Virus record (IMG/VR): IMGVR_UViG_3300042691_015059
Span: 1-50,411 of that record
Strand: one strand, 5' to 3'
Length of the DNA: 50,411 nt
Source: a virus
In this document: one piece after another, positions 5,735 through 50,406 of the stretch
Layout: every line of letters starts with the position of its first letter
How positions within the stretch are numbered: position 1 is the first letter of the stretch
The notes under the pieces: model-generated
What the model was told of the DNA's origin: nothing
Database searches by the model: none
What the model saw: the letters and a program-made list of their open reading frames with translations, nothing else
Made by a program: the position numbers and the translations under genes

Positions 5735-5747
5735 GTCAATAGTTATA

Positions 5748-6285: not shown

Positions 6286-6292
6286 GTAGATA

Positions 6293-6321: not shown

Positions 6322-6366
6322 GTCTTGTTTGTGTGAAATCCGTCACACCAGAATCCGTCAAGGGGC

Positions 6367-6395: not shown

Positions 6396-6402
6396 AATCC
6401 AA

Positions 6403-8510: not shown

Positions 8511-8710
8511 TACCACCGTTCCTTGATGAATTCGTGGGTTTCTTCCGTGACATCGCTCTGGTAGAACGGGTCAAGTGGGGTTCCGTTGATCTGGTGAGCC
8601 AACTCCGACCGGTAAACGCTGAGCATATTGCCCCAGACTTGTCCGTATCTCATGTTTCGGTTCTTCTGGAACTCGTTAGTAACGAGACCGAGGAAGTCGT
8701 CGTAAGTCAT
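8510..8710 (-). CDS. Hypothetical protein, 66 aa
   Basis: The ATG at 8710 overlaps the TGA of the preceding 35-residue gene. The protein is helical and soluble (YDDFLGLVTNEFQKNRNMRYGQ). The string RYGQVWGN...YRSELAHQI resembles small actinophage proteins of unknown role. No function assigned. Confidence 0.8.
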   Translation of the reverse strand: MTYDDFLGLVTNEFQKNRNMRYGQVWGNMLSVYRSELAHQINGTPLDPFYQSDVTEETHEFIKERW

Positions 8711-32262: not shown

Positions 32263-33597
32263 TCAGGAAGGCTCAGCGTCGAAGGTGACTGCTACGAACG
32301 ACTCCGGTCGCTTGACGGCCAGCGCAAGACGCTCTTCGGCAAGAACGACGATTGCGTTCCGAACGAAGAAGTCCGAGTGCTGTTCCGAAATGCGGATCGA
32401 AGCCTGCTCACGGTCGTACAACTGAGCGCCGGTGCCGAATGCGCCGATAAGAGCGGTGCCTTCAGAAATGGCGGGGGTGTCTACGACCGGCATACGCCAG
32501 ATGCGGGGTTCGCCACCGAGAGCAACCGAGACAGCAACGAGGTACTGACCGTTGGTGTCCTTGGTGAGTTCGATGTCTTCCCAGTCGTTCGGGTGCAGAA
32601 CAACGCCAGTTGGCTCGTAGTAAGCAAGGAAGGCGAGGGTTGCTGCACGACGAATGGCATCAGCCTTGGTGTCTGGGACCGGGCTGGTCGAACCTGCGGA
32701 CCAGTCGTAGGTCTGAACGCCAGAGGTGTTCAGGATGCCGGTGAGGTTTTCACCAGTTCCATCACCGTTGAGGATTTGAGCATCCTCTTGGAGACGGAGA
32801 CCGTAAAGAAGTTCGTTGTCGATGATCGAACGCAACTGCGGTTCGTCGGCAAGAACGTTGCGGTGTGCTGCTTCCCAGTGGGCAAGCGTGCGAACCGGAG
32901 CCTGATGGCCTTCGAAGACCATGCTTGACTGCGGCTTGGCGGCGAAGTTGCCACCTGAACGCTCTGCAACCGACGAAGCGGCATTGGTGGCGGTGGTGCC
33001 GGGGGTGGTGAAGCCGATCATGCGGAAGTATTCGATGACAGCCGAGGTCGTGGTGCGGACCGGGAAAAGGTCACGAACACGACGGGTACGCATCGGAGGA
33101 ACCACAATCGGGTCACGCTCAATGTTGCCGAATGAACCGGGGGTGCCGGAGGGGAGTGCCGAGTAGACATCCTTGAAAGCGCCAGCGGTTACGTCAGCGT
33201 GCTGAAGTACGAACGGTGAAGGCATATTTGCGCCGTTACGACCACCGTCAAGAGCCTTGAATTCGGCAGAAGCGAGGAATGCTTCACCGAGGGTCTTGAC
33301 TGAGTAGCCACGGACATCGCCCTGCTTGGCAAGCCAAGCGGAGGCCGATCCACCAACTGAATCTTCAGCAGGCTCGTTGCCCCACTGCTCTACAGACTTC
33401 ATGGCATCAAGGCTCTCAATGAGGCTCTTGATTTCCTTGATGTCCTTCATGTTGCTGTCGAACGCTGACTTCTGTTCGGTGGATACGACGACGGTGCCGT
33501 CTTCTACCCGGAAACTATCAGCGATGGCCTTGTTGTCGGCCATCTTGGCTCGTAGTGCGGCTTGTAGTTCTTCAAGCCGACCTTCATTTGAAGACAT
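32263..33597 (-). CDS. HK97-type major capsid protein, 444 aa
   Basis: Main shell protein of the head. The N-terminal 100 residues are a helical delta domain (RLEELQAALRAKMADNKAIAD) that is normally removed by the prohead protease. The fold follows with the typical E-loop region, DEPQLRSIIDNELLYGLRLQEDAQILNGDGTGENLTGIL, and the final FVRNAIVVLAEERLALAVKRPESFVAVTF strand. CAGGAGAGACAA precedes the ATG. Last gene of the right-hand operon. Confidence 0.95.
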   Translation of the reverse strand: MSSNEGRLEELQAALRAKMADNKAIADSFRVEDGTVVVSTEQKSAFDSNMKDIKEIKSLIESLDAMKSVEQWGNEPAEDSVGGSASAWLAKQGDVRGYSVKTLGEAFLASAEFKALDGGRNGANMPSPFVLQHADVTAGAFKDVYSALPSGTPGSFGNIERDPIVVPPMRTRRVRDLFPVRTTTSAVIEYFRMIGFTTPGTTATNAASSVAERSGGNFAAKPQSSMVFEGHQAPVRTLAHWEAAHRNVLADEPQLRSIIDNELLYGLRLQEDAQILNGDGTGENLTGILNTSGVQTYDWSAGSTSPVPDTKADAIRRAATLAFLAYYEPTGVVLHPNDWEDIELTKDTNGQYLVAVSVALGGEPRIWRMPVVDTPAISEGTALIGAFGTGAQLYDREQASIRISEQHSDFFVRNAIVVLAEERLALAVKRPESFVAVTFDAEPS

Positions 33598-33781: not shown

Positions 33782-35194
33782 CTATTGCTTCTTTTTCCAA
33801 GGATGACCCTTTGGAAGAAGATCGTTGTCAGTCACATAGCGACTGTTATTGGGTTTCCCCGACTTAAGAATCTTCAGAAAGGCGTTAACTCGCCCCATTG
33901 CCCACTGATTCCGGGTCATCCCCGGTCTATGAGATACGGAGAAGGCTCCAGCCCCACGACGGTAAACGGACTTAAGTGTTCCAAGCGAGGTTCGTTTCCA
34001 CGACTCACCATCCGCAACACTTTCGTTATGCTCTTTAACCTTGGATTTAAGAGATGTGAGGGTGCTTTCGTCAATAATGATTGAGCGGCCCGACGAGGAG
34101 GATGAGGCGCTGCCGCGTTGATTGCGGCTTGATCCAACGATCTGATCTTCCTTTGGGGCGGGGGTCGCCGCTAGTCGATCCGAGCGACCTCTGCGCTTTT
34201 TCGCGGATTTCTCAGAATCTGCAAAATCTTCAGTGTCTGTTGATTTCTTTGATCGGGCGATCTCGCGACGAACCAAGCGGCGAACGTTTTCTTGCTGTTG
34301 TCGTCCCACTTGACCCCGATAGGCACCTTGACCAGTTTCCCGCTGATAGGTGACATGGGTCGTGCATGGCATCCAAACGGTTTCCCCGTTTCGGGCGGTG
34401 TAGCGGCGAATCCCAATGCAGCCAATCTGACGGCTACGGATTCTTGCAGATGCCGGATCGGTGTAGGTGTCTGGGTCTGTGACACGGGGAACGAACTGAA
34501 CGATGGCCTTGCCGCTGACGAGTCCACCGGAAGGAAGGGTTTCGATTCCTAAAACCCCACGTTCAATGAGTTTTTGCCATTCCTTGCCATTGTTCCTGAC
34601 CCTGTTCAAATAACGCTTGCGTTTTTTGTGTTTAGCGGAACGATGGATTGAAGATGAAACCAAAGATTTTTCCGTCTCTGGCTTATCTTTCACTACTAAA
34701 AGATTTTCTGGGATGACCCAAAATTTGCAAATTGCTTCAGGGTCGATGTCCCCACGAACAAGTTCGCATCCACGAGGACCGACATAGAAGGCACAGTTTG
34801 CACAAACCATGCCTTCCTCCTTGAAGGGATTCTTTTCTGCTTCTACATAATGGGCACCGTTCGGGCCAATCCCCTGATCAAAAACCCCATGCTCCTCAAC
34901 GATTGCCTCAAGGTCTTCGTAGAGGTCTTCTTGCCTGTCGTTAAGGGGGTAAATGTCTTGATTGGCGGCGGACTTTTCCATTACAACCGACTTCACTTTC
35001 GCCTTTTTGGGCTTAGCACTTTGCTTAACGGGATCGGGAAGATCATTGGGAATAGCGATTTCTCCGCCAGCCTCAATTATCTCATTGTATTCAGCAAGGA
35101 TTTGCTCATCTTCTTCATTCTGAGGTTTAATCTCACCCGTGCCTAAAGCGATCATCCTTGAAATCAATTCATCTGAAGATTTGAATTTATTCAT
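33782..35194 (-). CDS. Structural-block protein with HiPIP-like Cys motif, 470 aa
   Basis: Residues about 130-160 read CANC, eight residues, C, then ELVRGDI and a fourth Cys (EAICKFW), the four-Cys spacing type seen in high-potential iron-sulphur (HiPIP-like) clusters. The centre is basic with Arg-rich helices, then a Ser-rich linker. The C-terminal part (SLGTLKSVYRRGAGAFS ... TRNQWAMGRVNAFL ... DNDLLPKGHPW) is a module I believe recurs in phage head-associated proteins. Not identified further. It may be packaged in the head. Confidence 0.75.
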   Translation of the reverse strand: MNKFKSSDELISRMIALGTGEIKPQNEEDEQILAEYNEIIEAGGEIAIPNDLPDPVKQSAKPKKAKVKSVVMEKSAANQDIYPLNDRQEDLYEDLEAIVEEHGVFDQGIGPNGAHYVEAEKNPFKEEGMVCANCAFYVGPRGCELVRGDIDPEAICKFWVIPENLLVVKDKPETEKSLVSSSIHRSAKHKKRKRYLNRVRNNGKEWQKLIERGVLGIETLPSGGLVSGKAIVQFVPRVTDPDTYTDPASARIRSRQIGCIGIRRYTARNGETVWMPCTTHVTYQRETGQGAYRGQVGRQQQENVRRLVRREIARSKKSTDTEDFADSEKSAKKRRGRSDRLAATPAPKEDQIVGSSRNQRGSASSSSSGRSIIIDESTLTSLKSKVKEHNESVADGESWKRTSLGTLKSVYRRGAGAFSVSHRPGMTRNQWAMGRVNAFLKILKSGKPNNSRYVTDNDLLPKGHPWKKKQ

Positions 35195-36357
35195 GGCTCT
35201 AAATCCTTAGGTGAAGAATCAGAATAACTAGAAAAGCCTTTAAGTTTAGCCGGTGGCTTCTCAGTGTCCTTTGAAGGCTTAGCGCCAAAGCCAAAAAGTT
35301 TGAACTTCTTGGCCTTCTCATTAGCCGCCTCAGACTTCTTAGGCTTCGGCGGAATACCCTTCTTCAAGAACCTTTGATAAGCAAACTTGTCAAGCACCTC
35401 AAGTTTCTCACCCTTCTTCTTTTGGGCAATCAAACGAGGAGGCTTGTTTAGATTGTTTGCATCGTAAAGGTAAAACTCGTCAAATAGGTCGTCTTTAAGT
35501 GCTTGAGGAACGACCCGAGAAACCTGACCATGAATGTATTCCACCTGATGACTTGGAACTTTCCGACCCGTCTTTTTGAAACGCTCCTCGTTGAGTTTTT
35601 TTGCCAGTTCAAGGTCAGTGGTCATGTAGTTGGCGACAACCCTATGGCCGTTTTTACGCAGACCACGGACTCGGCTTTTTAGTCCTTCGTAGTTTCCGTC
35701 TCCGGTTGTATCGAAAATGATGTCTGCTTCATCGTCAAGTAAAGCGTCAGTAACGACCGAGTTGATGTGCTTGGATTCATCATGAACGATACTTGCCGCA
35801 TCTTTGGCACCATTTTCACGCCAAAGTTGATACTCGGGGATGAATTCCTTCATCTCGTCAGCATCAAGTTTTACAGCAGACTTTGAACCCTCTAGCGATG
35901 GTAGGCCCGCTTCAAGGGCACTGGATTTCCGACTGGCTGGACCACCACCAAGGAAAAACACTGTCGGATTATCACTTTTCCCTTTAGATCGGGAACGATA
36001 AATGTCAACAATCCGAGCATGAAGTTTTTGACGTTGGGGTGTCCAGTCGCCTCTCTCGTCAGTAAGAGTTGCTGATGTCGGCTTTTTTTTAAACGACAAA
36101 ATCGGTCCGATTAGCCGCTGTTTCGGCATTTTTAGTTTTTCGGCTGGCTCCGGTTTTTTTATTTTCGGTTTGTTTATTTTTGCCGCACCAACAGAACCCG
36201 GAACTTTTGGTTTTGGGGTAACAGGTCGCTCTAATGGCGTTCCGTCAAACTCAAGACCATCACCATCACCATCACCGCCCTTTATTGGGGCGGAAACTGA
36301 ACTTGCTGCTCTTTTCAGAGGCTTGCCGAAACCGGGCAAACGATTTCGCTTGCCCAT
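35191..36357 (-). CDS. Zeta-toxin-like kinase in the head operon, 388 aa
   Basis: A P-loop FFLGGGPASRKSS (about 134-146), the VKLDADEMKEFIPEY strand-helix, and FDTTGDG with a following NYEGL helix make this a zeta-toxin family domain, which in bacteria phosphorylates UDP-N-acetylglucosamine and stops wall synthesis. Here it has a long basic N terminus with GGDGDGDGLEFDGTP and a Lys-rich C-terminal tail. It lies between structural genes, so delivery with the DNA or a head-assembly role is possible. ATG at 36357 chosen; a longer start at 36426 lacks a better site. Confidence 0.85.
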   Translation of the reverse strand: MGKRNRLPGFGKPLKRAASSVSAPIKGGDGDGDGLEFDGTPLERPVTPKPKVPGSVGAAKINKPKIKKPEPAEKLKMPKQRLIGPILSFKKKPTSATLTDERGDWTPQRQKLHARIVDIYRSRSKGKSDNPTVFFLGGGPASRKSSALEAGLPSLEGSKSAVKLDADEMKEFIPEYQLWRENGAKDAASIVHDESKHINSVVTDALLDDEADIIFDTTGDGNYEGLKSRVRGLRKNGHRVVANYMTTDLELAKKLNEERFKKTGRKVPSHQVEYIHGQVSRVVPQALKDDLFDEFYLYDANNLNKPPRLIAQKKKGEKLEVLDKFAYQRFLKKGIPPKPKKSEAANEKAKKFKLFGFGAKPSKDTEKPPAKLKGFSSYSDSSPKDLEP

Positions 36358-36358
36358 T

Positions 36359-36724
36359 TCACTTCTTCTTTTCTGCTGGCTTTTCTTCCGGCTTTTCTTC
36401 CGGCTTAGCCTTTTTGATTTCGTCAATCATCTTCTGGACGCGCTTAATATTTTCGCCCGTATACGGAAGTACCTCAATGTTTTTTCCGTATCCACCAGAG
36501 GAAATAGCGTCAGTGCGAATTAGTTCATTCGCCATTTCTTCGTAGTCCTTGCCCTTCATCCCTGCCATGTCGGCGGTGAGTCCAGATGCAACATCAAAGT
36601 AAATGGTTCCAGCACGTCCACTGGCATTAGTGCTTTCTCGCGTCACGACAACGGTCATCATCGGAACTTCACGACGTTCTTTTTTATCCCATTGGGTGTA
36701 GACGATTGCTGTTGGCTTGATCAT
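36359..36724 (-). CDS. Hypothetical protein with Lys/Glu/Pro tail, 121 aa
   Basis: AAGGAGAATTAAA precedes the ATG at 36724. The body is alpha/beta (TAIVYTQWDKKERREVPMMT) and the last 25 residues are KPEEKPEEK-type repeats, a tail often seen on proteins that bind the inside of capsids. No family recognised. Confidence 0.75.
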   Translation of the reverse strand: MIKPTAIVYTQWDKKERREVPMMTVVVTRESTNASGRAGTIYFDVASGLTADMAGMKGKDYEEMANELIRTDAISSGGYGKNIEVLPYTGENIKRVQKMIDEIKKAKPEEKPEEKPAEKKK

Positions 36725-36725
36725 T

Positions 36726-37172
36726 TTAATTCTCCTTGACCCCAAGGAAATCGTCGTCAGTGCCTTTCAGTTCCGATTCTGGGTAAAGTTTTGCCCAATA
36801 CTTCGGAGTGACCCTATTGATGGTCAATTCACCCCAAACTTTAGAATTCAGAACAATTTTGTCGCCCGTAAATCTGACTCGCCCGGTAAGCACTAGACGA
36901 TGAGGGTTATCGTCAGCGAATTCTAAGATTTTTTCCTCTTCGGGAGTTTCATAGAAATCCAGATCGCGAAATACTGCGGGTAGCCCAGCGGCTACCTGTT
37001 TATTCGTTTCTGGTGTTTTGTCCATAATGAAAGGACCGACAATAAAGGAGTTATTATCGTAATCATCGGAGAGGACTTCTGGATATTTTTTTGCGGCAAT
37101 ATCCAACGTAAGAAATTCTTCTGATGTTACTTTTACCCAATCAAGTTTTTTTAAAGAGTCATACTTTTTCAT
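36726..37172 (-). CDS. Hypothetical protein, 148 aa
   Basis: I chose the ATG at 37172 (MKKYDSLKKLDWVKVTSEE), which lies after a GAGAA stretch and five bases after the giant gene's stop. The C-terminal part is strand-rich with a possible beta-barrel pattern (RLVLTGRVRFTGDKIVLNSKVWG). No family recognised. It may be a small partner of the giant protein. Confidence 0.75.
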   Translation of the reverse strand: MKKYDSLKKLDWVKVTSEEFLTLDIAAKKYPEVLSDDYDNNSFIVGPFIMDKTPETNKQVAAGLPAVFRDLDFYETPEEEKILEFADDNPHRLVLTGRVRFTGDKIVLNSKVWGELTINRVTPKYWAKLYPESELKGTDDDFLGVKEN

Positions 37173-37176
37173 TTTC

Positions 37177-40100
37177 TCATTCCCACCAGAAACCCATGTC
37201 TTTCCAAACCTCAACTAACTGTTTGAACTGTTCGTCTTTTTTGCTTTGCTCCGCAATAAGGAGTTCAACAGGAATACCATCGATTTCCGTAACCCCTTCG
37301 TTTTTCAGGGCTTCAACGATGTATTCCTTTTTGCCATCGTCTACGACCATAATTCCACTACTCACTCTAGTTCCACCCAAGAACTGAATTTGAGCACTAC
37401 CATTTGCGGTCATCCCATAATCGAAAATGCCTGCTCTCTGGTCTAAGTTTCCGTAATGGTCTGACGTGTGAACCTGCGTATCCAATCTGTTTCCATTCAT
37501 TTGGATGGGAGTATAAAAATAGAATCCTCCCGCACCTTTAGGCTTTTGAGTTCCAGTTATATCTGAATTGATATTAACCGATGGGTAAAAAAACATGTAA
37601 TCACTTGAACCAACTTCGGTGTCTTCTAGTGAGGACATTCCACCTTTAATGATTCCATGATCGTGACGGCCCTTTGTTGTTGTTAGTCCGCCCGTAAGGA
37701 AAATTGAAACGATCCTGTCAGTCGTGGCGTTTGGATTGTTCCAATCACTACTCCCGGTAATTCTGTGTTCAAAACCATCGTATTGCGTTGCCTGCATAAT
37801 TTTGCGCGTAGCCTGCTCGCTCAACACAATGCGAGGATCGCCGCCAATCGAAGTAGTCAACTGAATGTCGTCTGGCGACAAGCCTTTCGATTCAATCAAT
37901 TCTGTCAATTGCTCTTCGGACAGAGAACCGGAATCGGTGGTCCCACCCAAAAGTTGTGCTGCCTGACGCAAGCCAACTTCCCTAACCTGCTCGGCTGTTG
38001 GGATTCCATGTTGGGTTATTCCAGCAGACTCCATAACGCTGGTCACTTTTTGAGTGTCGCTCAAGAATTCCTCAGGATCGCCGGGAACAATAATCCGAAC
38101 AGTCCTGTTGTCACCGTTTCTTTTGTGAGAATTTGATCCAGTAACAGTTTTTGTGTAAAGAAGAATACTTCCGTCAGGGTTTTGTTTGATGTAAGTCGAA
38201 ACTTTTGTGTTGACCGTAAGACTTCCGTGATTGTTCAATTTGTTGTTTGGTTTTGTGACATCAAGGGTGATCGGAACTTTCTGTTGAAGACTGTCAGGGA
38301 AGTTACCCATGTCTTCAAGGTCGAAAACATCAACGGGAGTAACGTGGCCAGATTTCCACTCTGTCCATCCGCCATCAGGATCATTAATTTCGGCTTCAAT
38401 TTTTGCTTCAGCGTCTGAACGAACTTTGAATACCAATGATGTTGCGTCTCCATCTGGAATATCCAGTTTTTGACCATCGGCATCTCGCACAAGTTTGCCG
38501 TCTTTTCCTTTAGGGCTTCCACCCTTAAGTTTTATTTTTTGTGCCGAAACCTTAAATCCTTCAATAAGACCGGCATCGTAAAAGGTTTTTACGCCGGTGT
38601 TTCGATGCTCACGAAGTTCGCCAACCTTTTTGGCGGAGTTCGAAAGAGTTGGCGTGTTCTTTTCTTCAAGTTGGAAACCTTGAATTTCTTTACTCGCAAG
38701 TAAATCTGCGATTTGGTCATCGTCATAACCCAATGACTTAAACAAATCAGTTGTCATCTTGTCCCAATCAAGGGACTCTTTTCGATCTTCAAGGAACTTG
38801 GCGTGCTTCGTGAGTCGCTCGCGCTCCACATCCGTTAAACCTTGAACGTCAGCAATCTTTGTAAATTCTTTTTCGTAGTCGGCTTTTTTGTAGCGAGTCG
38901 TTGCGTTTTTTAGTGCTGCGGCAAAAATGGCCCTATCTTCTTCGCTCATACCCTCCAAATATTTGTGGAGAGGAATGTTGTCACCCTTTGTGACCTTGGA
39001 GAATCCATAAGACACTTCGTCCTTACCATCAGCAAATGGGTAGAACCCGTTGCCATGATCAATTGGATGAAGATGAATTTTTCCTGTTTCCTTGTCGCGA
39101 ACCGCAATTACATTTGCAGCGGTTCGGTCGAAATAGTTCATTGAGCGGTCAAGAACCATCAAGCGAGCAAGGGACTCCGGGTCGATGTCCCCACTGGAAA
39201 CGGAAGGTGGCGAACTTAAAATCTCAAACTTTTCAGGATCAAACATATTGCCAACGTGCTCAATCACGATGGCTCGTTGATCACCCATCTTCTTGCCTTC
39301 AAGTTCGGCTTTATGGCCGGGAAGGGGTTTCTGGGTGATTCCACTGCCGAAGCGCATACCGGTAACTGGCTGGCCAAGAATCTGAGCAAGGACGCTTCCA
39401 GCGGCTTCTTGAGTGTGTTCCTGATCATTACGATCAGCCAACTTCACAATAAATTTCTTACCGGTCAAGCCATCAACGAACCCAACTGTTTCATTGAAGC
39501 CATTGGCTTTATCGAAAAGCGGGGAGAATCGCTTACCTTCTCCTGTGTTCAGTTTGATTGCATCAAAAAGGAACTCATCAGGAATTTCGGAAAGTTTTGA
39601 TCCAGAACCAATTCTTTCTGCTGCATCTTCAACGGTGAAGATTGCGTTATATCCAATTGGAATCTTGTAAGCAATTGCTGATCCGTCTTGCTGCATAGAG
39701 CCAAGATAAGTTGAATCAAGTGCAGTCGGCTTTGGCATTCCTTTCGGAACTTTCGGGAAACTGGTAGCGGCTTTAACGTCAAGCCCCTTGTTGAAAACCT
39801 GTCCGATTTCTCCACTAACTTTCTCGGGGAGTGAATCTTTCGTAGAAATCAAAATCTGAGCATTCTTGCTTACGGCATTAACGTCACCTTGAGCAACGAG
39901 AAGTTTGTGATTTATTAAAAGATTCGTTAAATGTTCGACACGAGCATCATTCAGTTCGCCCTCAAGTACGAGGGCAGTCACTGGATCAGCACCATTAGGA
40001 AGACTTACAAACGCTTTTTGTGCTTTAGCAAGCCGTTCTGAACTTGCTGCAATTCGTGCGTCCATGATGTCATTGTCGATACCTTCACCAACTTTTCCCG

Positions 40101-43100
40101 TCGAAATTCCATCATCGAGATTATCTAACGTTGATTTAAGTTCTTTCAACGTTGTATTTTTGCCATACCTGTTGACAACGGCGGATCGAGCAAGAATTTT
40201 TGCTGCCGTGAGATCATCGACAGCACCGGTTGCTATGATGAGTGCTTTGCGTTGCTCTTCTGGTGATAGATCGGCAAAGTTTTCTGGAAGTTCTTCGATT
40301 GCATTTGGTAAATCTGTTGTGTATTTACCTTTGCTGTCTTGACGATCAATGATGCTTTTAAGACTGTTCCCAAGTTTTGAGTCTTCCGCATCAACAAGTT
40401 TTTTATGATCATATCCTTCGATTTCTTGACCGAAGAATGTTTGAATTGCAGAAGCATTTTTGTTGTCGGAAATAACAATCTTGTCAACTTCGGCTACATC
40501 AACATCTTTCTTTTTGAGGCCATCAAGGGCTTCAGTGCGTTTGAGTTCGTAGTATTCCTTCATACCAGCAATGTTGGCAAGATATTCAACGTCACCCGCT
40601 GTAACTGGCTGACCTTCTTGTTGCTTCTGCTCAAGGTAACTTACGTTGAAACCGTACTGCTCATCCATGAAGTAGATGAGTCCATCAAAGTGTTTATTGA
40701 CATCTTCTTCGGTCTGGAACCAAGAAATGTCACCTTCTGGTGGTGATGGCGACTCGGCAAGGTTGGTAAAACCTTGATTCTTCGTCGTTTCATACCACTC
40801 TTTGTCGTCAAGCCAATCTTGATACGATTCTTTCGTATTCGGCATTACGGGTGGTGTTTGATCAAGGTATTCATCCCATGCATTCACAGCATCCGGGGTG
40901 TCGGCAACGTCAGCAATGTCCGTATCGTCCGCCTTGACCGATTCTTTTTCCGATTCAGTGATCTTTTTGTCTAGTCCTTCACTGAGGCGTTTTTTGTATT
41001 CAAGTTCAGTGATGGCATCAAAAATCTCATCCATCTTTTTTTCAAATTCTTCGGCTTCTCCGTCTTCGGCAAGTTTTTGAGCATCAAGTTTGTCTTTTTC
41101 AATTCCTTCTTCAAGTTTTGAAATTTCTTGATTTAGAATCGACTTGCTGTCTTTTGCAGCAAGAACATCGTCTTTTACGGAACCTTGATACTTTTCCTTT
41201 GCTGCATCAATGCGATCTTGAATGTCTTCTTCGCCGTCTTTTGCAAACATAGAACTAGCAGTATTTTTTGCATAGTTCTCATGCCAATCAACTTCCGACT
41301 TAACAAGTTGCTTAGCATCTTCTGTTGCCAGTTCTTTTTTAGGGGGGCTGGAAGCAGAACCATTTGGTTTAATTTTGGGTTCTTCTGTCGCTGATTTTGG
41401 TGGGGCGGCAGGAACGTAAGTTGAAGGTGGGGCGGCAGGAACGTAAGTTGACTCTGGAGTGAGGTCTGGAGTTTCGCCGTCATCTGGAACCAGATCAACG
41501 GTTGGATCAAGGTCAATAGTCTCTTTTTCCTTGATATCTTTTTTGCCTACAACAAGACCTTCGATGTCTGTGCCTTCAATAATTGCTTTACGACGCTTTG
41601 GCTGAATGTAATTAAATCGTTCAAACGGATCAAGGTCATCGCCTGCTTTGTCGGCAACCCACATTGCAGCAAAGTTTTTACGTTCAGTTCGAAGAAGACC
41701 CAAAAGTTTTTGATTCTTGGGCGTTTTATCATTTTCATCAGCAATCAACTTGTCGATAGCAGTAAGCATTTCTTCGCTGCTGTCAAACTTTTTATCTCCA
41801 AGACGAGCATCCCAGAACTGAAGAACTTCTTCACGCTGCTGACTAAACTCACTAATAAATTTCTCATTAGTGCCCGGACCGTTGTATTTATCCAGCATTT
41901 CCGGTGACAAGTCATCTGGAAGAAAAAGACCAGTCTTTGACTTGGTGAGTTCAAGTTTGCCGTCAAGTTTTTCTAAGTCAGCAATTTCTTTTGCTGCCTC
42001 GTCTGGAATTTTGTCAACGGCATTTTCAACATCAAGGACAATCTCATCCTTGTCGGCTTTCGGGTCTGGAAGGTCAATGATCGAACCATTAGGACCAAAA
42101 GCAAATACGGCCTCTTCGTCACCAGCGAGGAAACGTTCTTTATCGACAAGACGGAACTTTCCATTCTCCGTCTTTACGACATAGATTTCTTTACCCCTAT
42201 CAAGTGCAGTGTTGTAACCCCACTGCTTTGCAGACTCCTCGTTTTTGAAAACATTCCCATACTGCTTACCGGGAAGTTTCTTAGGCTTCTTGCCCTTGTT
42301 CTTTTCGTTCTTTTGCGCGGCAACATCAATTGCTGCCTCGGCGGCTGCTGCTGGACCAGAAGGCTTCTTCGGCTTCTTCGGTTTACCAGTGGCAGGAATC
42401 TTTGTGGTCTCCGGTGTGGGGAGATTTCCTTCAGTTAGACCGTTTTCATCATCACCGGGTTTGATGATCTTCCCCGGCTTGTTCTTGATCTTCCGACCAT
42501 CCCACTTCCAATATTCAGGAATGGACGGGTACTGAGCCGGACCACCAAATGACTGAACCGGTTCCTTCGAATCAACAAACTCGCGATAACGCTTCCACTC
42601 GTCGTCAGTAATTCCCTCTGGACGTTCAGTCCGGCGTTTCTTTTTTTCTTCTGCAAACGCTTCCGCCATGGTGGTGATCCCAGCAGGCTTCTTAGCCGGA
42701 ACCTTTGAAGGCATTTCGAAATCAGGGAGGTCTTCATCAGCAACGGGCTTAATGGCCTCTGGGGTGTCTGCATCCGGCTTTTTGCCTCCACCCGTGGGAG
42801 CCTTTGGCTTCTTCGGAGTTTCAGGCTTTTCGGGAACGTTCTGACGCTCAGGTTTATCCGCATCCACCCATTCATCAAATGGAAGAAGATCGTTAGGAAG
42901 ACCCTTCCCGCCATCCTTCATGTTGTCTCGGAACGATTCCTTCAGGTAATCGTCATAAGCCTTGCGGTCTTCATCAGAAGCATCGCCGGGAACTGTGGCT
43001 CGTAACTTCTTAACCTCTTTGCGTCCAGCGAGGATGCCAAGCGAGTCCTTGGGGGCTTTGTCTGGGGTCTTGTCCTTCTGCTTCTTCTTTTTAAGGGCGA

Positions 43101-43620
43101 GTGCTTCTTTCAGGGCTTCTTCAATCTCGTCCTCAGTTGCAACGACATCAGCAGCCTCAGTAAGTTTTCGACCCAGAAGACTACGCTTCTTGCCGTTCTT
43201 TTTATCCTTGAGTGCTTCTTCAAGTTCCTCAACGGTGGCAAGTTCATCAGCAGTGCCAACAAGTTTCTTGCCAAGACCACCCAAAATGGTGCGCTTTTCT
43301 TTTTTGCGCTTCGCTTTCGGTGCTTTCGGCTTTGGTGGCTTGCCTCCATCGCCAATGGCTACACGCTCAACAGCAGCACCCAACTTTGCTAGGTTCGCCC
43401 GAAGCGGCCCGAGATTACAAGTGGTCCCCATGGAGTTCGTCCACTTGCCAGCACGACGAGTTCCCGGTGGGCAGCGGAATTTACGAACACGCTTGCCTAA
43501 CTTCTCCACGTCTACTTGCTCAACAAGGACGCGGCCAGCCTTGATGTCCATGGTCATCTGACTGACCATTTTGGCGGACTCGTATCGGAGTGCCTTGTAT
43601 TCGACTTCAGACTTGTTCAT
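37177..43620 (-). CDS. Giant multi-domain head-associated protein with kinase-like domain, 2147 aa
   Basis: The N terminus (about 47-75) has FRCPPGTRRAGKWTN and TCNLGPL, a Cys motif shared with 43665-44846. Residues about 90-480 are Lys/Pro/Ala-rich with an internal repeat (LVGTADELATVEELEEAL and LTEAADVVATEDEIEEAL). Long helical regions follow. Around 1350-1530 is a PI3/4-kinase/HipA-like fold: FIVKLA (Lys near 1390), VIEHVGN hinge, FDRTAANV catalytic loop (about 1497) and PIDHGNGF metal site (about 1523). The last 200 residues hold a separate module (GGLTTTKGRHDHGIIKGGMSS). Probably an ejected, head-packaged protein; function inferred. Confidence 0.85.
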   Translation of the reverse strand: MNKSEVEYKALRYESAKMVSQMTMDIKAGRVLVEQVDVEKLGKRVRKFRCPPGTRRAGKWTNSMGTTCNLGPLRANLAKLGAAVERVAIGDGGKPPKPKAPKAKRKKEKRTILGGLGKKLVGTADELATVEELEEALKDKKNGKKRSLLGRKLTEAADVVATEDEIEEALKEALALKKKKQKDKTPDKAPKDSLGILAGRKEVKKLRATVPGDASDEDRKAYDDYLKESFRDNMKDGGKGLPNDLLPFDEWVDADKPERQNVPEKPETPKKPKAPTGGGKKPDADTPEAIKPVADEDLPDFEMPSKVPAKKPAGITTMAEAFAEEKKKRRTERPEGITDDEWKRYREFVDSKEPVQSFGGPAQYPSIPEYWKWDGRKIKNKPGKIIKPGDDENGLTEGNLPTPETTKIPATGKPKKPKKPSGPAAAAEAAIDVAAQKNEKNKGKKPKKLPGKQYGNVFKNEESAKQWGYNTALDRGKEIYVVKTENGKFRLVDKERFLAGDEEAVFAFGPNGSIIDLPDPKADKDEIVLDVENAVDKIPDEAAKEIADLEKLDGKLELTKSKTGLFLPDDLSPEMLDKYNGPGTNEKFISEFSQQREEVLQFWDARLGDKKFDSSEEMLTAIDKLIADENDKTPKNQKLLGLLRTERKNFAAMWVADKAGDDLDPFERFNYIQPKRRKAIIEGTDIEGLVVGKKDIKEKETIDLDPTVDLVPDDGETPDLTPESTYVPAAPPSTYVPAAPPKSATEEPKIKPNGSASSPPKKELATEDAKQLVKSEVDWHENYAKNTASSMFAKDGEEDIQDRIDAAKEKYQGSVKDDVLAAKDSKSILNQEISKLEEGIEKDKLDAQKLAEDGEAEEFEKKMDEIFDAITELEYKKRLSEGLDKKITESEKESVKADDTDIADVADTPDAVNAWDEYLDQTPPVMPNTKESYQDWLDDKEWYETTKNQGFTNLAESPSPPEGDISWFQTEEDVNKHFDGLIYFMDEQYGFNVSYLEQKQQEGQPVTAGDVEYLANIAGMKEYYELKRTEALDGLKKKDVDVAEVDKIVISDNKNASAIQTFFGQEIEGYDHKKLVDAEDSKLGNSLKSIIDRQDSKGKYTTDLPNAIEELPENFADLSPEEQRKALIIATGAVDDLTAAKILARSAVVNRYGKNTTLKELKSTLDNLDDGISTGKVGEGIDNDIMDARIAASSERLAKAQKAFVSLPNGADPVTALVLEGELNDARVEHLTNLLINHKLLVAQGDVNAVSKNAQILISTKDSLPEKVSGEIGQVFNKGLDVKAATSFPKVPKGMPKPTALDSTYLGSMQQDGSAIAYKIPIGYNAIFTVEDAAERIGSGSKLSEIPDEFLFDAIKLNTGEGKRFSPLFDKANGFNETVGFVDGLTGKKFIVKLADRNDQEHTQEAAGSVLAQILGQPVTGMRFGSGITQKPLPGHKAELEGKKMGDQRAIVIEHVGNMFDPEKFEILSSPPSVSSGDIDPESLARLMVLDRSMNYFDRTAANVIAVRDKETGKIHLHPIDHGNGFYPFADGKDEVSYGFSKVTKGDNIPLHKYLEGMSEEDRAIFAAALKNATTRYKKADYEKEFTKIADVQGLTDVERERLTKHAKFLEDRKESLDWDKMTTDLFKSLGYDDDQIADLLASKEIQGFQLEEKNTPTLSNSAKKVGELREHRNTGVKTFYDAGLIEGFKVSAQKIKLKGGSPKGKDGKLVRDADGQKLDIPDGDATSLVFKVRSDAEAKIEAEINDPDGGWTEWKSGHVTPVDVFDLEDMGNFPDSLQQKVPITLDVTKPNNKLNNHGSLTVNTKVSTYIKQNPDGSILLYTKTVTGSNSHKRNGDNRTVRIIVPGDPEEFLSDTQKVTSVMESAGITQHGIPTAEQVREVGLRQAAQLLGGTTDSGSLSEEQLTELIESKGLSPDDIQLTTSIGGDPRIVLSEQATRKIMQATQYDGFEHRITGSSDWNNPNATTDRIVSIFLTGGLTTTKGRHDHGIIKGGMSSLEDTEVGSSDYMFFYPSVNINSDITGTQKPKGAGGFYFYTPIQMNGNRLDTQVHTSDHYGNLDQRAGIFDYGMTANGSAQIQFLGGTRVSSGIMVVDDGKKEYIVEALKNEGVTEIDGIPVELLIAEQSKKDEQFKQLVEVWKDMGFWWE

Positions 43621-43664: not shown

Positions 43665-44846
43665 TCACTGGGCGACTGGCTTCACTTGCCCATTTACTTG
43701 TTCAACGAAAGACCAAGGTTTGAAGTTCTTGGGACGAGCAGGTGCTTCCTGAGCCATAAACATTTCGAAAATCCAACGACGAACAGTTCTTGTTGATCCA
43801 TCTTCTCGTTGAATCTGAATCAATTCGGTAGCGTCACCCTTAATGTTCGGGAAACTGTGCTGGATTGTGATTGAGTCGCTGGTCTCAGAAGCAAGTTGCT
43901 CAAGAGCGCCAGTCCAGAGAGCCTCTTTATCGTCTCTCAGTTTTTTCCAGCGAAGGGACATTTTTCGAATGCCTTCGTCCTTGACTCCACGCTTGCGGTC
44001 GATCCTAATGCTGCTAATTCCGTCTGGCATGGCAATAACCACAGAAGCAACACCCGTTCTGAGCAGGTCAACGTCATCGTAACCAATTTTGTTGAAGTCA
44101 TTTACACTCACGACGAAAGCACCGTTAAGGATGTCGTCATTTCCTCGGAGTTTCAGGAGGTTATTTTTACTTGTAACGGAATCAAGAATCGTTCCATCCC
44201 TGCGAATCAAACGAACCTTGTCTGAAGATGCCATTGGGGCAATGCTGTTCGCAATACCTGCATCAACCTGATTTTTGTTCGGTTTGCTTACGCGAGCGAT
44301 GTTTGGTGCACGCTGAATATCAATTCCCTGACCCGCGCCACCACCACGAATCAACTTGCCCTTTTTGGGATCGTCTGCCTGCACAATGCTTGCAGCGGAA
44401 CCCGTCGCCGCCTCAGCAGAATCAACGGCATCGGGTGTATCAAAAATGCGAAGACCGCAAGTGTTCATCAAGCGGTTTGTGAACTTCCCACCATTTTCAA
44501 AACCAGCAGGACAACGGTAAAGGTCACGAGAGCCACCAATTCGGTTCGGAAGTCCACCTCGCCTTCCGCCTCCACCGCCACCCGGAGTTAAGGTTTCTGC
44601 AATGGTGGAACGAATTGGACTTCGAATGTCACCCATATCGCCGGGAAGAGCAATGCTTACAGCAGATTGAATAACTCTGCCGGAACGAGAGCGCGAGCCA
44701 ACAAGCCCAACTTTCTCTCTCATTGATGAAAGCCAAGCATCCTTTTGAAAATCAGAGTATGGATTCAGGTCGGAAATTTCTGGATCGAAAAAAGCGGCAA
44801 TTGCTGCCTCAATTTCAGATTCTGAATTCGAATATTCGTTACCCAT
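43665..44846 (-). CDS. Head-associated protein with Cys motif, 393 aa
   Basis: The ATG at 44846 is ten bases after GGAGG; the ATG three codons earlier is too close to it. Residues about 110-135 hold YRCPAGFENGGKFTN and TCGLRIF, matching the motif at the N terminus of the giant protein. A Gly-rich linker precedes it. The C-terminal half (TDLLRTG-like strands; DSITIQHSFPNIKGDATELI) is folded and beta-rich. No known function; likely a capsid-interior partner of the giant. Confidence 0.75.
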   Translation of the reverse strand: MGNEYSNSESEIEAAIAAFFDPEISDLNPYSDFQKDAWLSSMREKVGLVGSRSRSGRVIQSAVSIALPGDMGDIRSPIRSTIAETLTPGGGGGGRRGGLPNRIGGSRDLYRCPAGFENGGKFTNRLMNTCGLRIFDTPDAVDSAEAATGSAASIVQADDPKKGKLIRGGGAGQGIDIQRAPNIARVSKPNKNQVDAGIANSIAPMASSDKVRLIRRDGTILDSVTSKNNLLKLRGNDDILNGAFVVSVNDFNKIGYDDVDLLRTGVASVVIAMPDGISSIRIDRKRGVKDEGIRKMSLRWKKLRDDKEALWTGALEQLASETSDSITIQHSFPNIKGDATELIQIQREDGSTRTVRRWIFEMFMAQEAPARPKNFKPWSFVEQVNGQVKPVAQ

Positions 44847-44885
44847 CCCTTGCATCCCTCCGATGACTTTGGGTGCTGGAACGGG

Positions 44886-46256
44886 TCAGTCCTCGTTCAG
44901 CAGACCTTTGATTTCCTCTTCAGCGGCGAGAAGTTCGAACTCCATCATCGCTGCGGTGATCTCGTCAATATGGGCAGACTTTTCGCCTTCCATATCCTCA
45001 TCATCCCAATTTTCTGGGATGAGATTTTCGAGTTCAAGGTCTTCTGCACGCTTGACAATGTGAGCCTTTGCGGCTTCCTTGTCCTTGGCACGTCCATAAG
45101 CCTGAATGGCATTACGGAGATCGGCTTCGTCAGCGATTGGGTAAGACCCGTCAGGAAGTGCTTCTCCGGCTTCCGCCATAGACATACGGCGCTCTTCGGA
45201 GTAGGCACGCTTTTCTTCAACGTCATCTACGTCAGCGGTTTCAACGTCGTCTTCGTCTGACTTGCTGTCAATGTCATCGCCGTCTTCCCAGACGTACTGG
45301 TCGTAGCCGAGGACTTCACCGTCAGGTGAAACGAAAACGTCGTATGACTTGCCGTCAAGACCGTCGATTTCAATTGCATACACTTCACTGCCTTCAAAGG
45401 TGCTTACGGAGGTGCTTGCAGCCTTGCCTTCAATTACTCCGAGTGCTGCGGCTGTAGCGGTCTCAATGTCAACGATTTCTTCCTTGCCGAGAACCTCTTC
45501 GGAATCGACACGGAACCAACCGTCAATTTCACCGTCACCGGTTACATAAGCCTCTACGAACTGACCATCCTTGCGCTCAACGTGGAGGACGAAGATGTCG
45601 TTCTTTTCGCTGTAGCCAGAGTTGATGACCTTGCCGTTGAGTGCGTCTTCGGTGAGACCTTCAATTTCAAGGAGGTCTGGTCGGCCATCTTTGACCTGAC
45701 AACCGCCAACGCAGTCATCGCAGGGGCTTGATCCGGCTGCGCTCTTTACCTCACGGCTGAAAGCACAAACGAAAGTATCGTCATCCATGTCATCAGACTT
45801 CATGCCCATGGATTCCATTCGTGCACGACGGCGCTTCTTGCGAGCCATCGCGCGTTCTGCCATGCGCTCCATTTCGGACATATCTCCACCCATTGAGCCT
45901 TCTGGGCCTTCAATGTCGTCAATCATGTCTTCATTTTCGCCAGCACCGCGAACGCCGCCTTTGATTTGAACTGCCATAGCGCCGCATTTTCCGCAGACCT
46001 TGGCTCCGGCCTTGTAGCCGCATTCGCCGCCAGTAAGACCTTTAGCGCACTTCTTGACCATACCTTCGGGGTCAATTTGTACGACTGCCTTTTCGTCCAT
46101 GTTGTCCACTTCTGGCTCCTTTATCTGCATGGCATCTGTCATGCAAGCATTTGAACTCTTGCACGCCATGCAGGGTGTGGCGCGCTTTTCGCCTGACAAT
46201 CCGCAATTATACTTGTTTACGGATGGCAAGGGGGGTACTGGCTTCTGTTGCTTCAT
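44886..46256 (-). CDS. Cys-rich acidic protein with DUF6582-like C-terminal module, 456 aa
   Basis: The N-terminal third has several Cys clusters (CGLSGEKRATPCMAC, GECGYKAGAKVCGKCG, CAFSREVKSAAGSSPCDDC), separated by Met-rich basic helices. Residues about 250-320 look like a PepSY-type domain (AAALGVIEGKAASTSVSTFEG). The C-terminal part LPDGSYPIADEADLRNAIQA and AKAHIVKRAEDL fits DUF6582, which occurs in phage prohead-protease-associated proteins. Probably scaffold-like or head-associated; metal binding is likely. Confidence 0.8.
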   Translation of the reverse strand: MKQQKPVPPLPSVNKYNCGLSGEKRATPCMACKSSNACMTDAMQIKEPEVDNMDEKAVVQIDPEGMVKKCAKGLTGGECGYKAGAKVCGKCGAMAVQIKGGVRGAGENEDMIDDIEGPEGSMGGDMSEMERMAERAMARKKRRRARMESMGMKSDDMDDDTFVCAFSREVKSAAGSSPCDDCVGGCQVKDGRPDLLEIEGLTEDALNGKVINSGYSEKNDIFVLHVERKDGQFVEAYVTGDGEIDGWFRVDSEEVLGKEEIVDIETATAAALGVIEGKAASTSVSTFEGSEVYAIEIDGLDGKSYDVFVSPDGEVLGYDQYVWEDGDDIDSKSDEDDVETADVDDVEEKRAYSEERRMSMAEAGEALPDGSYPIADEADLRNAIQAYGRAKDKEAAKAHIVKRAEDLELENLIPENWDDEDMEGEKSAHIDEITAAMMEFELLAAEEEIKGLLNED

Positions 46257-46346
46257 TTTTCTTCTTTGCAAACTCTAGTTCAGTGGTGATGCACTTTACT
46301 GAAAGGTGCGGGTTGCGGCAAGGATGCTTTGACCCTTACAGAACAT

Positions 46347-49300
46347 TTATGGTTCATATGGCCAGACTGTATCTGTAAACGCTCTGAAATCATCGGGATC
46401 AAGGTTGCCTTGAAGGTCCAAATACATTTCTTCTTCAAGGTATTCAAGTTTTGACTGCCTTGGGGTTTTTGGGATGTCTCTGCCGAGTGATCCCATGGCC
46501 CGCCGCCCGTAGGTTCGCTCCGTCAATTTCTGTTCATCGTAGATTCCCTCTTGAATGTCTTCCCAGAGAGCAACCGTGTCTTCGAAATCAGCACCTTCCG
46601 TCCAAAAAGGATGTTTCAGGATGTCTTCAACGCCCCTTGGGTCTTTGTATGGATTGCGTTCATCAGCATCATCGGGGAGTGCACGACTGCCCAGTTCACG
46701 GGGGCTGCGGTAGCCTCTTTCGCCGCTTGGGCGATCTTTCGGTCGTTTGCTACCACTCGGTCGTTTGCTGCCGCGTCCCATCATTGGGGGTTTGCGGTCG
46801 CCAAGACCTTTCGGCGGTTTGGGGAGTTTACTGATTGGGGTTTCGTCAGGTTCACCGGGGGCGATACTGAATTTTCCGTCATTGTCGCCATCTCTCGGAA
46901 TAAATCGACCGGCACTTCGACCACGACCAATGGCATTACCGATGCTCCGACCAATTCCTTTTGTCTGAATGTTGTCAAAATTCACAACTACAGACTCAAT
47001 GGCGCTCTTTGCTTCATCGACAAGATCGGAGAAATCTTTGACATGAACACCGTTTTCGGTAACTTCAACGTCAAGTCCGTAGTATTCCACAACAGGGTCA
47101 AGGGTTTCCCGAATGGCGAAAAGATTTTCAATCGGCGCTTGGATAAATCCATCCGATTTCATTTCAATGGCCTCCTCTGGGGAAAGTCCATTAATTGTTT
47201 CCTGAAGAAGCGCAATTGCTTGCCGAATCTTGCCAAGGTTGCGAGCATTAATCGAACGACCAACCTTGAAGTCAAGAATCCCTTCGACCGACTTAATCAG
47301 TGAATCAAAGTCGTCCTCGTCGTCTGACTTCTCGCCACAATCACAGTCGGACTTCATGCTCCAACCGGCTTCCGGCTCATACATTTTCCACTCGCCGTCA
47401 TCGTCCATACCTTCATGGACCCAGTTCTTTTCTTCGCGAAGGTAGTCAACAAACTCCTTCTCTTCGCCCATAAATTCAGACAGAACTCTCATGGCGTAAA
47501 CGAGATCGTCCTCAGTTACTTCCCCGTCACCATTGAAGTCAAGCATCTGTGACATTGCCATTTCATTAGGCATTTCTTCGTCACGTTCAGGCATGACCCA
47601 TCCGCCATGACCCTTCTCTAAATCGTGAGCATCTTTCTTGCCACGATTGAGACGGTTGAGTCGTGCGTTGAATTCTGAATCAGACAGGAGTGATCCTCCG
47701 GTCACACCACGCAATTTGCGACGACAGTTCTTCATGCCGGGATGATGACAACCCTCATTCGGCCAAAGGCCAGTCGTCTCATGATGCAGCCAAGCGCAAA
47801 TGTTGCTCAACGGATACAACTCTGGATGATTGGCAAGGATTACACGGCAACGGCGGAAACCACCGGGCTTACGCATAATCGGTCGCCAGTAACGCAAGAG
47901 TCGCTCAAGATTTCCACGACGAGGACCGTAACCACGGAGGACATCACCAGTGATTCGCTCCTGTGGGATTGCGTCTGGGGGGATTGGTGCTTTGAGACTC
48001 AAGCCGTCTTCGGCTGTCTTCATGCTGTCCCAGCATCCACCTTTTCCTCCACATCCGCAGCCGCAACCCGGACCCTTCATTGAGGAAGAATCCTCACCCA
48101 TGCCCATGAATTCTTTGTCTCCAGCGTAGGCTTCGCCTTCGCCACCATCCATGGGTACATAAACGGTTTCAACCCGAACCATTTCGGGCTTACCGATCAT
48201 GACCTGACCACGCTCAGCGTGCCATGACGCTCGCATGGTTGCCAGCCCTTCGTCCTCGTCTTTTACGTCGAATACGACAGTGTTTCCTGTCATGGTTCGA
48301 ATTCGAACAGGTGCACCGAGTTCATTCGCAAGTGCTCCGGCAAGAACTGCACGACGACTCATTTCATTGTCATCGCCCATCTCTTCACTCATTGCAATGC
48401 GACCAAGTTCTTCGATTGGGTCGTCTTCTGAGGAGTCGTATTCCTCTTCTTCGTCTTTGTCGTAACCGTAGCCTTCGTAGCCGTCAGTTTTCTTCTTCAT
48501 TTCCTTCTTGGCAATCGCTTCTCGGACTACATCCTTCATGTGTCCTTCGCCGCGACTCCCAACTGCCAGCCACTTGATCTGAGCGATTACGCCGGGAAGA
48601 CGGAAGTCGCCCTCGTGGCGAGCGACCCATGCTTCGCGTAGTTCCAGTGCCTTGATTTGGTCTTCCGTCTCGGCGGTTCCGCCGTTTCGGTGAATTTTTG
48701 AAAGAATCTCCCATTGGTCATTCCCCCGAATGTTTCCACCTTTTGCCCAAATTTCAGGATGTTCTTCTTTGAGTTTTTGTGCCCACTCAAGATCAAACGT
48801 ATCCCATTTGGATTTACGGAAACTTGTAATTCGGCTGGATTCACCATTAGCAGATTTAATTGAGATCGTTGCGGTGAGTTGATTTGCCCCATGGAGAACT
48901 GGAGAAACTTCGTATAGTTCAACTTCTTTGAGAAGGTTTGCTTGACGTTCTGGAGAGTAAATCGAATCAAGAGTCTTGTAGCCGATGCTCCATTCCTGAT
49001 CCTCGCCAAAGAACATTACGGAGTTGAAAGCCTCGCGACCGCGTTCTGACTTGAGGTTGAATTGAACCTTGGCATAAACACCGCCAACGCCAGCCTCTCT
49101 CATTTTGGCTGGGAGTCTTGCGTCCTTGGGGCCAACTTCGTAGATTTCGAGAACTTTGCCGATTGGCTGGTTCCAGTCATGACCCCAAACAACACGAGGC
49201 TTGCGTCGGTTCAGAGAGTTGTTGAAAGCGCCGGAAACAACTACATCTCCAACGGAGTCTTTGTTGCCAACAGCAGCAACGAAACATTCAACGATTCCCT

Positions 49301-49379
49301 TCGCTTCGTCAACATTTAGTTGACCGGAAAGGGCTTTGAACTGAAGGTCTGTATCCACTTGTTTCTCCACTGGTGGCAT
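46347..49379 (-). CDS. Prohead protease fused to a long extra region, 1010 aa
   Basis: Residues 1-180 are an HK97-family prohead serine protease: VVSGAFNNSLNRRKPRVVWGHDWNQPIGK carries the active-site His, and SIGYKTLDS is the Ser region. It trims the capsid proteins. The remaining 800 residues are unusual: acidic helices, a GCGCGCGGKGGC cluster near 450, an EF-hand-like DFNGDGEVTEDDL near 620, and a DGDNDGKF loop near 830 in front of a Pro/Arg-rich part. The extra region may be scaffold or a packaged passenger. The ATG at 49379 is chosen; the start is not strongly marked. Confidence 0.85.
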   Translation of the reverse strand: MPPVEKQVDTDLQFKALSGQLNVDEAKGIVECFVAAVGNKDSVGDVVVSGAFNNSLNRRKPRVVWGHDWNQPIGKVLEIYEVGPKDARLPAKMREAGVGGVYAKVQFNLKSERGREAFNSVMFFGEDQEWSIGYKTLDSIYSPERQANLLKEVELYEVSPVLHGANQLTATISIKSANGESSRITSFRKSKWDTFDLEWAQKLKEEHPEIWAKGGNIRGNDQWEILSKIHRNGGTAETEDQIKALELREAWVARHEGDFRLPGVIAQIKWLAVGSRGEGHMKDVVREAIAKKEMKKKTDGYEGYGYDKDEEEEYDSSEDDPIEELGRIAMSEEMGDDNEMSRRAVLAGALANELGAPVRIRTMTGNTVVFDVKDEDEGLATMRASWHAERGQVMIGKPEMVRVETVYVPMDGGEGEAYAGDKEFMGMGEDSSSMKGPGCGCGCGGKGGCWDSMKTAEDGLSLKAPIPPDAIPQERITGDVLRGYGPRRGNLERLLRYWRPIMRKPGGFRRCRVILANHPELYPLSNICAWLHHETTGLWPNEGCHHPGMKNCRRKLRGVTGGSLLSDSEFNARLNRLNRGKKDAHDLEKGHGGWVMPERDEEMPNEMAMSQMLDFNGDGEVTEDDLVYAMRVLSEFMGEEKEFVDYLREEKNWVHEGMDDDGEWKMYEPEAGWSMKSDCDCGEKSDDEDDFDSLIKSVEGILDFKVGRSINARNLGKIRQAIALLQETINGLSPEEAIEMKSDGFIQAPIENLFAIRETLDPVVEYYGLDVEVTENGVHVKDFSDLVDEAKSAIESVVVNFDNIQTKGIGRSIGNAIGRGRSAGRFIPRDGDNDGKFSIAPGEPDETPISKLPKPPKGLGDRKPPMMGRGSKRPSGSKRPKDRPSGERGYRSPRELGSRALPDDADERNPYKDPRGVEDILKHPFWTEGADFEDTVALWEDIQEGIYDEQKLTERTYGRRAMGSLGRDIPKTPRQSKLEYLEEEMYLDLQGNLDPDDFRAFTDTVWPYEP

Positions 49380-49440
49380 TGATGTATACACGGTACAACA
49401 CCACAAATACGGATATTAAAATGAATATCCGTAAATATGG

Positions 49441-50406
49441 TCAGTCAAGAGATAAACGCAATTTACAACGACAGGCAATCGACAGGTGAGGAGGAGCGAG
49501 GGGATCACCGGGGAATCTCAATACAGCCCCATCAACCTTGAACCCATCAGTCAGACCTACGGTCTTTCCCTCCAGAAGTCGATGCTCGCGTCGAACTTTC
49601 TCGTCCCTTTGGGTCCGCCACATCTTCTTTGCAGCACCAGACTGAACACCTGAAAGGTAAAGTCCGCCATTGAAGGCAGATTGAGCCTCATTTTCAGCAA
49701 TCCGGCGCTTTCGTTTAGTCAAAAGAGCAACAAAGATTGCAGCAAGAGCGGCTGTAAGAAGTTTGTGACTTTCTTCTGGCCCATCGGTGGACCCAAGTGC
49801 CTGAGCAGCAAGAATTGCAGCAGCGATTTCTTCCATCGTTGTCTTGTTGATCTTCTGCATACGCTGAGTCTGGGCTTCGATGATGTCCTGATACTCCTCT
49901 TCAGTCGTATCGGTCGGCATTTCGGCCTTTTCACCAACTATCCCAGCAGCATCAGCAACAATGCCAGCAATTACTGGACGAATATCCTCAGAAAGTTGCT
50001 TGTTCCATGTCTGAATGTCGAAAAGGTTGTCTGGCTCAAGGCGACCTTCAGCAAGGGCTTTTCTTGCTTTAGCCCCCCTCGCTTTTTCCATAACGACCCG
50101 CTGCTGACGTTCCATGAATCGCTCAAGAGTTCGATCCATGATTTCCTGCCACCTGCCGGTTGCAGTGTCAGCCTTAACTTCCCATTCCTCGTCAATTTCG
50201 TTCCAACCCTTGACGAGAATATCTGTGCTGTGTGCAGAGGCTTCCTGCATCTCTGCGCCAGTTTCTTCAACAGTCGGCTGAGGAACTTCTTCTTCAGTGG
50301 CCGGAGCCTCTTCAACCTGAGCGCCACTTGCTTCACCGGCTGTCTGCATCTGTTGCTGCATCTCAGCCTGCTGCTTTGCCTGCTCTTCGGGCGAAACGTA
50401 TGGCAT
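49441..50406 (-). CDS. MuF-like head morphogenesis protein (probably continues beyond window), 321 aa visible
   Basis: The C-terminal third (KKMWRTQRDEKVRREHRLL, FKVDG, LRFPGDPLAPPHLSIACRC) is the Mu gpF-like signature, with Cys/Arg at the end. The middle has helices and a short hydrophobic segment (LLTAALAAIFVALLT). The N terminus is Gln/Glu/Ala-rich. The first Met is only five bases from the window edge and no ribosome site can be seen, so the real protein may be longer, for example a portal-MuF fusion. Confidence 0.8.
   Translation of the reverse strand: MPYVSPEEQAKQQAEMQQQMQTAGEASGAQVEEAPATEEEVPQPTVEETGAEMQEASAHSTDILVKGWNEIDEEWEVKADTATGRWQEIMDRTLERFMERQQRVVMEKARGAKARKALAEGRLEPDNLFDIQTWNKQLSEDIRPVIAGIVADAAGIVGEKAEMPTDTTEEEYQDIIEAQTQRMQKINKTTMEEIAAAILAAQALGSTDGPEESHKLLTAALAAIFVALLTKRKRRIAENEAQSAFNGGLYLSGVQSGAAKKMWRTQRDEKVRREHRLLEGKTVGLTDGFKVDGAVLRFPGDPLAPPHLSIACRCKLRLSLD

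Follow-up and report, generated by a model that had tools for sequence, protein, structure and literature searches.

What is a set of kinase-like motifs doing within a giant protein encoded among the head genes of a phage? The question is raised by the IMG/VR virus record IMGVR_UViG_3300042691_015059, all 50,411 bases of which (50% GC) were analyzed here as the window, and in which no tRNA genes were found. The open reading frame (ORF) listing of the window holds an uninterrupted ORF of 2147 residues with an ATG start at 37177-43620 on the minus strand, as are all features of the head module given below; homologues of 1806-3504 residues occur at the equivalent place in related contigs. A sequence-only reading of this DNA had noticed four motifs in the protein, and had likened them to the Lys, hinge, DRxxxN and DHG elements of kinases of the phosphatidylinositol 3-/4-kinase (PI3/4K) and HipA type. 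The motifs indeed follow one another in that order within residues 1390-1526 (FIVKLA at 1390-1395, VIEHVGN at 1452-1458, FDRTAANV at 1497-1504 and PIDHGNGF at 1519-1526), on a strand that the reading had left unmentioned. Sequence comparison and modeling both show that the predicted kinase domain (residues 1301-1645; 38686-39720) carries a full set of catalytic residues of the PI3/4K-HipA-CtkA type.

Single-sequence searches with the window protein alone against Pfam, PHROGs and PDB sequences did not detect the domain, and relatives were therefore needed to reveal it. In an alignment of 24 different intact kinase sequences, window protein included, only five columns are invariant (window numbering): G1374 (39499-39501), the loop glycine between the first strands of the N-lobe; K1393 (39442-39444), the ATP-binding lysine; D1498 and N1503 of the catalytic loop D1498-R1499-xxx-N1503 (39112-39129); and D1521 of the metal-binding DxG motif D1521-H1522-G1523 (39052-39060). 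The helix-C glutamate E1405 (39406-39408), R1499 and G1523 are among the columns conserved to at least 90%, and the hinge corresponds to E1454-H1455 (39256-39261). Because homologues that share only 18-51% identity in the kinase domain retain the key residues, with five columns invariant in the 24 sequences, the motifs go beyond chance resemblance.

Profiles built from the relatives point to the same kinase group. When the 24-sequence profile was compared with PDB sequences, CtkA of Helicobacter pylori came first (7.6e-5), and the rest of the 60 matches listed comprised only PI3K alpha/beta, mTOR/TOR2, VPS34 and DNA-PK; an 18-sequence profile additionally listed PI4K types (PI4K2, PI4KA), ATM/Tel1 and actin-fragmin kinase. 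As a negative control, a profile of the C-terminal region of the giant protein was searched in the same way, and that region gave no credible Pfam or PDB match. One relative (L094; loci are designated by L numbers) passes the curated cut-off of the Pfam family PI3_PI4_kinase (PF00454; 31.2 vs. 27.1 bits, 2.7e-7) and others fall slightly below it (best 3.6e-5), with HipA_2, HipA_C, Fam20C and CotH as weaker Pfam matches among the relatives (HipA_2 and HipA_C sub-threshold).

Structure prediction and a fold search, which the sequence-only reading had proposed as its check, were run on residues 1301-1645 and bore out the kinase fold. The AlphaFold2 model of the domain from the 24-sequence alignment reached a predicted local distance difference test score (pLDDT) of 89.9 and a predicted template modeling score of 0.90, with a pLDDT of 85-93 in the segments that contain the catalytic loop and DHG, and superseded an earlier run with 8 sequences, in which the catalytic loop had a pLDDT of 64. 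In model numbering, K1393 lies on the third N-lobe strand (89-94), E1405 lies within helix C (101-114) and the hinge ends strand 150-154; D1498-N1503 falls between a helix and a strand, D1521 follows the next strand, and the C-lobe is helical. Foldseek placed CtkA at the top (E 2.8e-7, probability 1.00), followed by HipT, VPS34, CotH and PI4KIIIbeta. Among predicted viral structures in BFVD, three uncultured Caudovirales proteins matched (A0A6J5NE85, A0A6J5MJB0 and A0A6J5SGR0; E down to 5.9e-14), one of them already named a phosphatidylinositol 3-/4-kinase domain protein, and protein A0A5Q2F0H9 of Gordonia phage Sixama was also among the best. Residues 1301-1645 thus almost certainly adopt a kinase fold on sequence and modeling grounds; judging from the topology of the confident model and from its structural matches, the lysine, the Asp/Asn pair and DHG would come together in one pocket, and the domain is very probably catalytically active.

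Judged by sequence, the kinase domain is conserved across a group of related uncultured phages. In IMG/VR, it occurs in giant proteins of 1806-3504 residues, all of which retain the Lys, DRxxxN and DHGN. A DNA scan for sequence coding PIDHGNAF returned 11 contigs, every one already among the known IMG/VR relatives, and viral scans with subgroup alignments and this DNA pattern yielded no further close members. The sole match in GTDB genomes (L019) was rejected, as it lies antisense to a ribonucleotide-reductase-like gene. In the relatives examined, the gene order is kept as protease, 461-residue protein, 396-residue protein, giant protein, 470-residue and/or Zeta-like protein and capsid, and the capsid protein is 74-80% identical. 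For a wider set, the capsid protein was used as bait and 80 loci were taken from 378 that matched; there, the kinase profile found intact kinases in other large head-module proteins of L041, L044, L046, L048, L053-L055, L060, L062 and L073, and likewise of L091, L094, L100, L101 and L110. L100 encodes an intact kinase in each of two consecutive head-module genes (2817-5867 and 6147-8699), plus a degenerate one. The giant ORFs of L014 and L015 (3200-3400 residues) also encode an extended array of pentapeptide-type repeats (ANLEGADL...), together with a DPDAxDADGDxxVQDGTPWERP motif.

A degenerate form of the domain was detected next door, by a profile built from intact kinases only. The homologues of the window's 396-residue gene are often longer (about 650-760 residues) and end in a degenerate kinase (down to 6e-9), from which the Lys, catalytic Asp, Asn and DxG have mostly been lost; examples are L029:3888-6119, L072:6440-8485 and L058:2024-4090, and sequences such as DTRGRTAAS and DQRGRPMTS occur in the degenerate domains. 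Many relatives have such a pseudokinase in the neighboring head-module gene. The window's own copy (43665-44855) is too short to include that region and is without it.

Cultured phages offer one instance of a similar arrangement. In tblastn searches of cultured phages with the whole giant protein and with the kinase domains of two relatives, the whole protein matched no record, and an alignment with Streptomyces phage RemusLoopin lies antisense to its gene and was dismissed as chance. Matches in Vibrio phages had E values of 3e-4 to 1e-2. Gp82 of Microbacterium phage Pumpernickel, first met as a weak tblastn match (E 2), is a protein of 2235 residues encoded shortly after the portal gene; its C-terminus reads NGDRHNWNWM...YPIDHGN and scores 31.6 bits with the kinase profile and 7.2e-5 with PF00454. 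With its C-terminal kinase, this protein indicates that giant head-module proteins of similar layout also occur in a phage available in culture. No kinase was found in the examined stretch of five cultured capsid relatives (ChisanaKitsune, Cantare, GMA6, Gilgamesh and DalanDe). Two of the annotated ones among these encode an RNA ligase between the portal and capsid genes, and one of the two, Gordonia phage ChisanaKitsune, has a VIP2-like ADP-ribosyltransferase (gp22, L121:1633-2721) there as well; the portal-capsid stretch thus hosts enzymes in related phages.

The remainder of the giant protein differs in character from the kinase. Its first ~900 residues abound in charged side chains and, locally, in proline. 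The C-terminal region (residues 1660-2147; 37180-38643), of unassigned fold, is conserved after the kinase in the giant-protein subfamily only, where it shows a recurring GxSSxxDxxxGGxDxxF-like pattern. Near the N-terminus, residues 46-70 (43411-43485) form a Cys motif region (FRCPPGTRRAGKWTN...), and the consensus RCPxGxxxGGRFTDxxxxTCG is common to the giant protein and the neighboring 396-residue protein (44451-44519) and occurs in more than 30 loci. Possible roles of this motif, conserved across the lineage, are head targeting and metal binding.

The head module runs leftward, and its gene order agrees with the placement of the giant gene between a prohead protease and a Zeta-like kinase in the sequence-only reading. 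It begins with a MuF-type head morphogenesis protein (49441-50406; PF04233, 5.1e-8, and PHROG head/portal families) and an S78 prohead protease of 1019 residues (46347-49406; PF04586, 4.7e-13), followed by a 461-residue protein kept in relatives (44886-46271; weak PHROG match to a head maturation protease), the 396-residue protein and the giant. A 162-residue ORF without a confident family match (36726-37214) overlaps the end of the giant gene and precedes a 411-residue Zeta-toxin-like kinase protein (35191-36426; PF06414, 2.1e-24; phrog_16619 minor head protein, 4.9e-43), a 470-residue protein (33782-35194) and the HK97-type major capsid protein (32263-33597; PF05065, 1.1e-44). The Zeta-like domain, a separate gene in the window, forms one polypeptide with the 470-residue homologue in several relatives (L008:13055-15424; L021-L023) and was not found in L025 and L029. 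Plus-strand genes farther left include those for replication and nucleotide metabolism. A PhyH (phytanoyl-CoA dioxygenase-like) protein at 30268-31077, which adjoins a methyltransferase and a B12-dependent ribonucleotide reductase, could possibly act in DNA or metabolite modification. Positions 10831-11406 bear a weak, sub-threshold likeness (E 0.005) to Acb3, an inhibitor of the cyclic oligonucleotide-based anti-phage signaling system (CBASS).

What, then, might the kinase do? Given the place of its gene in the late head module, the giant protein most likely ends up in the procapsid as a minor or internal component of the head; its long charged N-terminal half would serve packaging and release, the protein would enter the host together with the DNA, and the kinase would then phosphorylate host proteins early in infection. 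We consider it somewhat more likely than not that the protein is present in the virion, and judge its injection and action on the host to fall a little short of an even chance. The whole account, a virion-carried effector kinase released with the DNA that phosphorylates host proteins early, is evenly poised. It appears the best supported of the readings, given the parallel with polyvalent proteins such as T4 Alt (Iyer et al., 2017; PMC5512222). The same kinase domain, often accompanied by a degenerate kinase, recurs in different large head-module proteins of phages with the same kind of capsid, which fits the expectation for an exchangeable effector module. More tentatively, this lineage might package giant head proteins with an active PI4K/CtkA-like kinase, often paired with a pseudokinase, as an injected, exchangeable cartridge whose phosphorylating activity would reprogram the host ahead of any phage gene expression. 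Several points weigh against an injected protein kinase. A location in the head module suggests late expression, and location alone does not establish packaging. Kinase-fold enzymes can also AMPylate or glutamylate. Furthermore, template modeling scores against CtkA are modest (0.38-0.50), although the Foldseek probability is 1.00, and the domain is therefore a divergent member of the kinase group.

Other explanations were weighed against the same observations. The kinase might act in the producing cell on the scaffold, protease, capsid or itself and so time procapsid maturation, for which injection would be unnecessary. In the relatives examined, the gene lies on the stretch from the S78 protease gene to that of the major capsid protein, which suits such a role, and the pseudokinase partner in the adjacent gene recalls allosteric kinase-pseudokinase pairs. 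However, an intact kinase is not universal, as many capsid relatives have only a degenerate copy in the stretch covered and the five cultured ones none; it is therefore seemingly dispensable for this capsid type, and we regard an assembly role as unlikely. It is rather improbable that the fold has been kept for another activity, be it that of a lipid, sugar or nucleotide kinase, an AMPylase, a glutamylase or an inactive binding domain. The fold superfamily does span lipid kinases and unusual activities, and relatives carry a paralogue without catalytic residues in the neighboring gene, but the giant-protein kinases show no variation at any catalytic residue, and the best structural matches include the protein kinases CtkA, HipT and CotH. 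For the uncultured 'Gratiaviridae', a HipA-family kinase encoded between the portal and capsid genes was proposed to be a late-expressed enzyme, with a role either in guarding the infected cell against competing phages or in altering the envelope of the host (Benler et al., 2021; PMC8008677). In the present lineage, the domain forms part of a head-module protein of 1800-3500 residues, and no glycosyltransferase was identified by Pfam among the head-module neighbors in the window, which makes such a role distinctly improbable. Finally, the idea that the motifs arose as accidental matches within a structural protein of low complexity, to which the lack of any library match for the window protein alone lent some weight, is refuted by the conservation in homologues, the profile matches and the confident fold.

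Among the known systems that come close to the phage kinase is CtkA (PDB 3akj/3akk/3akl), which led both the structure and the profile-sequence searches and whose DRHxxN and following Asp motif align with those of the phage domain. Nevertheless, CtkA is small, free-standing and bacterial, whereas the phage domain sits within a 2147-residue head-module protein and is only ~14% identical to it in the structural alignment. HipA and HipT belong to the same kinase group, but they are part of type II toxin-antitoxin pairs. The phage kinase does not form such a pair, as Pfam identified neither a HipB-like antitoxin nor the N-terminal domain of HipA in the giant protein or its head-module neighbors. 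Few phage protein kinases are known, e.g., the early-expressed kinase of T7 and the prophage-encoded kinase of 933W (PMC8008677). The 'Gratiaviridae' enzyme resembles the present one in being HipA-like and encoded between the portal and capsid genes; it differs in belonging to gut phages, with ATPase and glycosyltransferase neighbors, and neither a giant head protein nor a pseudokinase partner was described for it (PMC8008677). With 2147 residues, a place in the head module, and a kinase plus a conserved C-terminal region, the giant protein is a polyvalent protein in the broad sense. Kinase domains have been reported in such large multidomain phage proteins, for which delivery alongside the DNA has been suggested (Iyer et al., 2017; PMC5512222). 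Those kinases lack the whole C-terminal subdomain, whereas the window kinase has a full C-lobe, with its helices in the AlphaFold2 model, and PI3/4K-like DRxxxN/DHG motifs.

The sequence-only reading had called a virion-carried kinase little described, which holds in part. Earlier publications cover polyvalent proteins whose kinases lack the C-lobe, as well as a HipA-like kinase encoded between the portal and capsid genes (PMC5512222, PMC8008677); for a complete PI3/4K-CtkA-like kinase in a giant head protein with a pseudokinase neighbor, a limited search of the open-access literature found no description. Gp82 of Pumpernickel is a cultured counterpart, a head-module protein of comparable size with a PI3/4K-like kinase, although it is distant in sequence, has the kinase at its extreme C-terminus and is annotated as hypothetical. 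As this phage is in culture, it makes the question of a virion kinase directly testable, and the pairing of kinase and pseudokinase in head modules provides a concrete hypothesis on regulation. Animal-virus particles carry kinases, and a kinase in a phage head protein, if true, would be their bacterial counterpart and could act before phage transcription.

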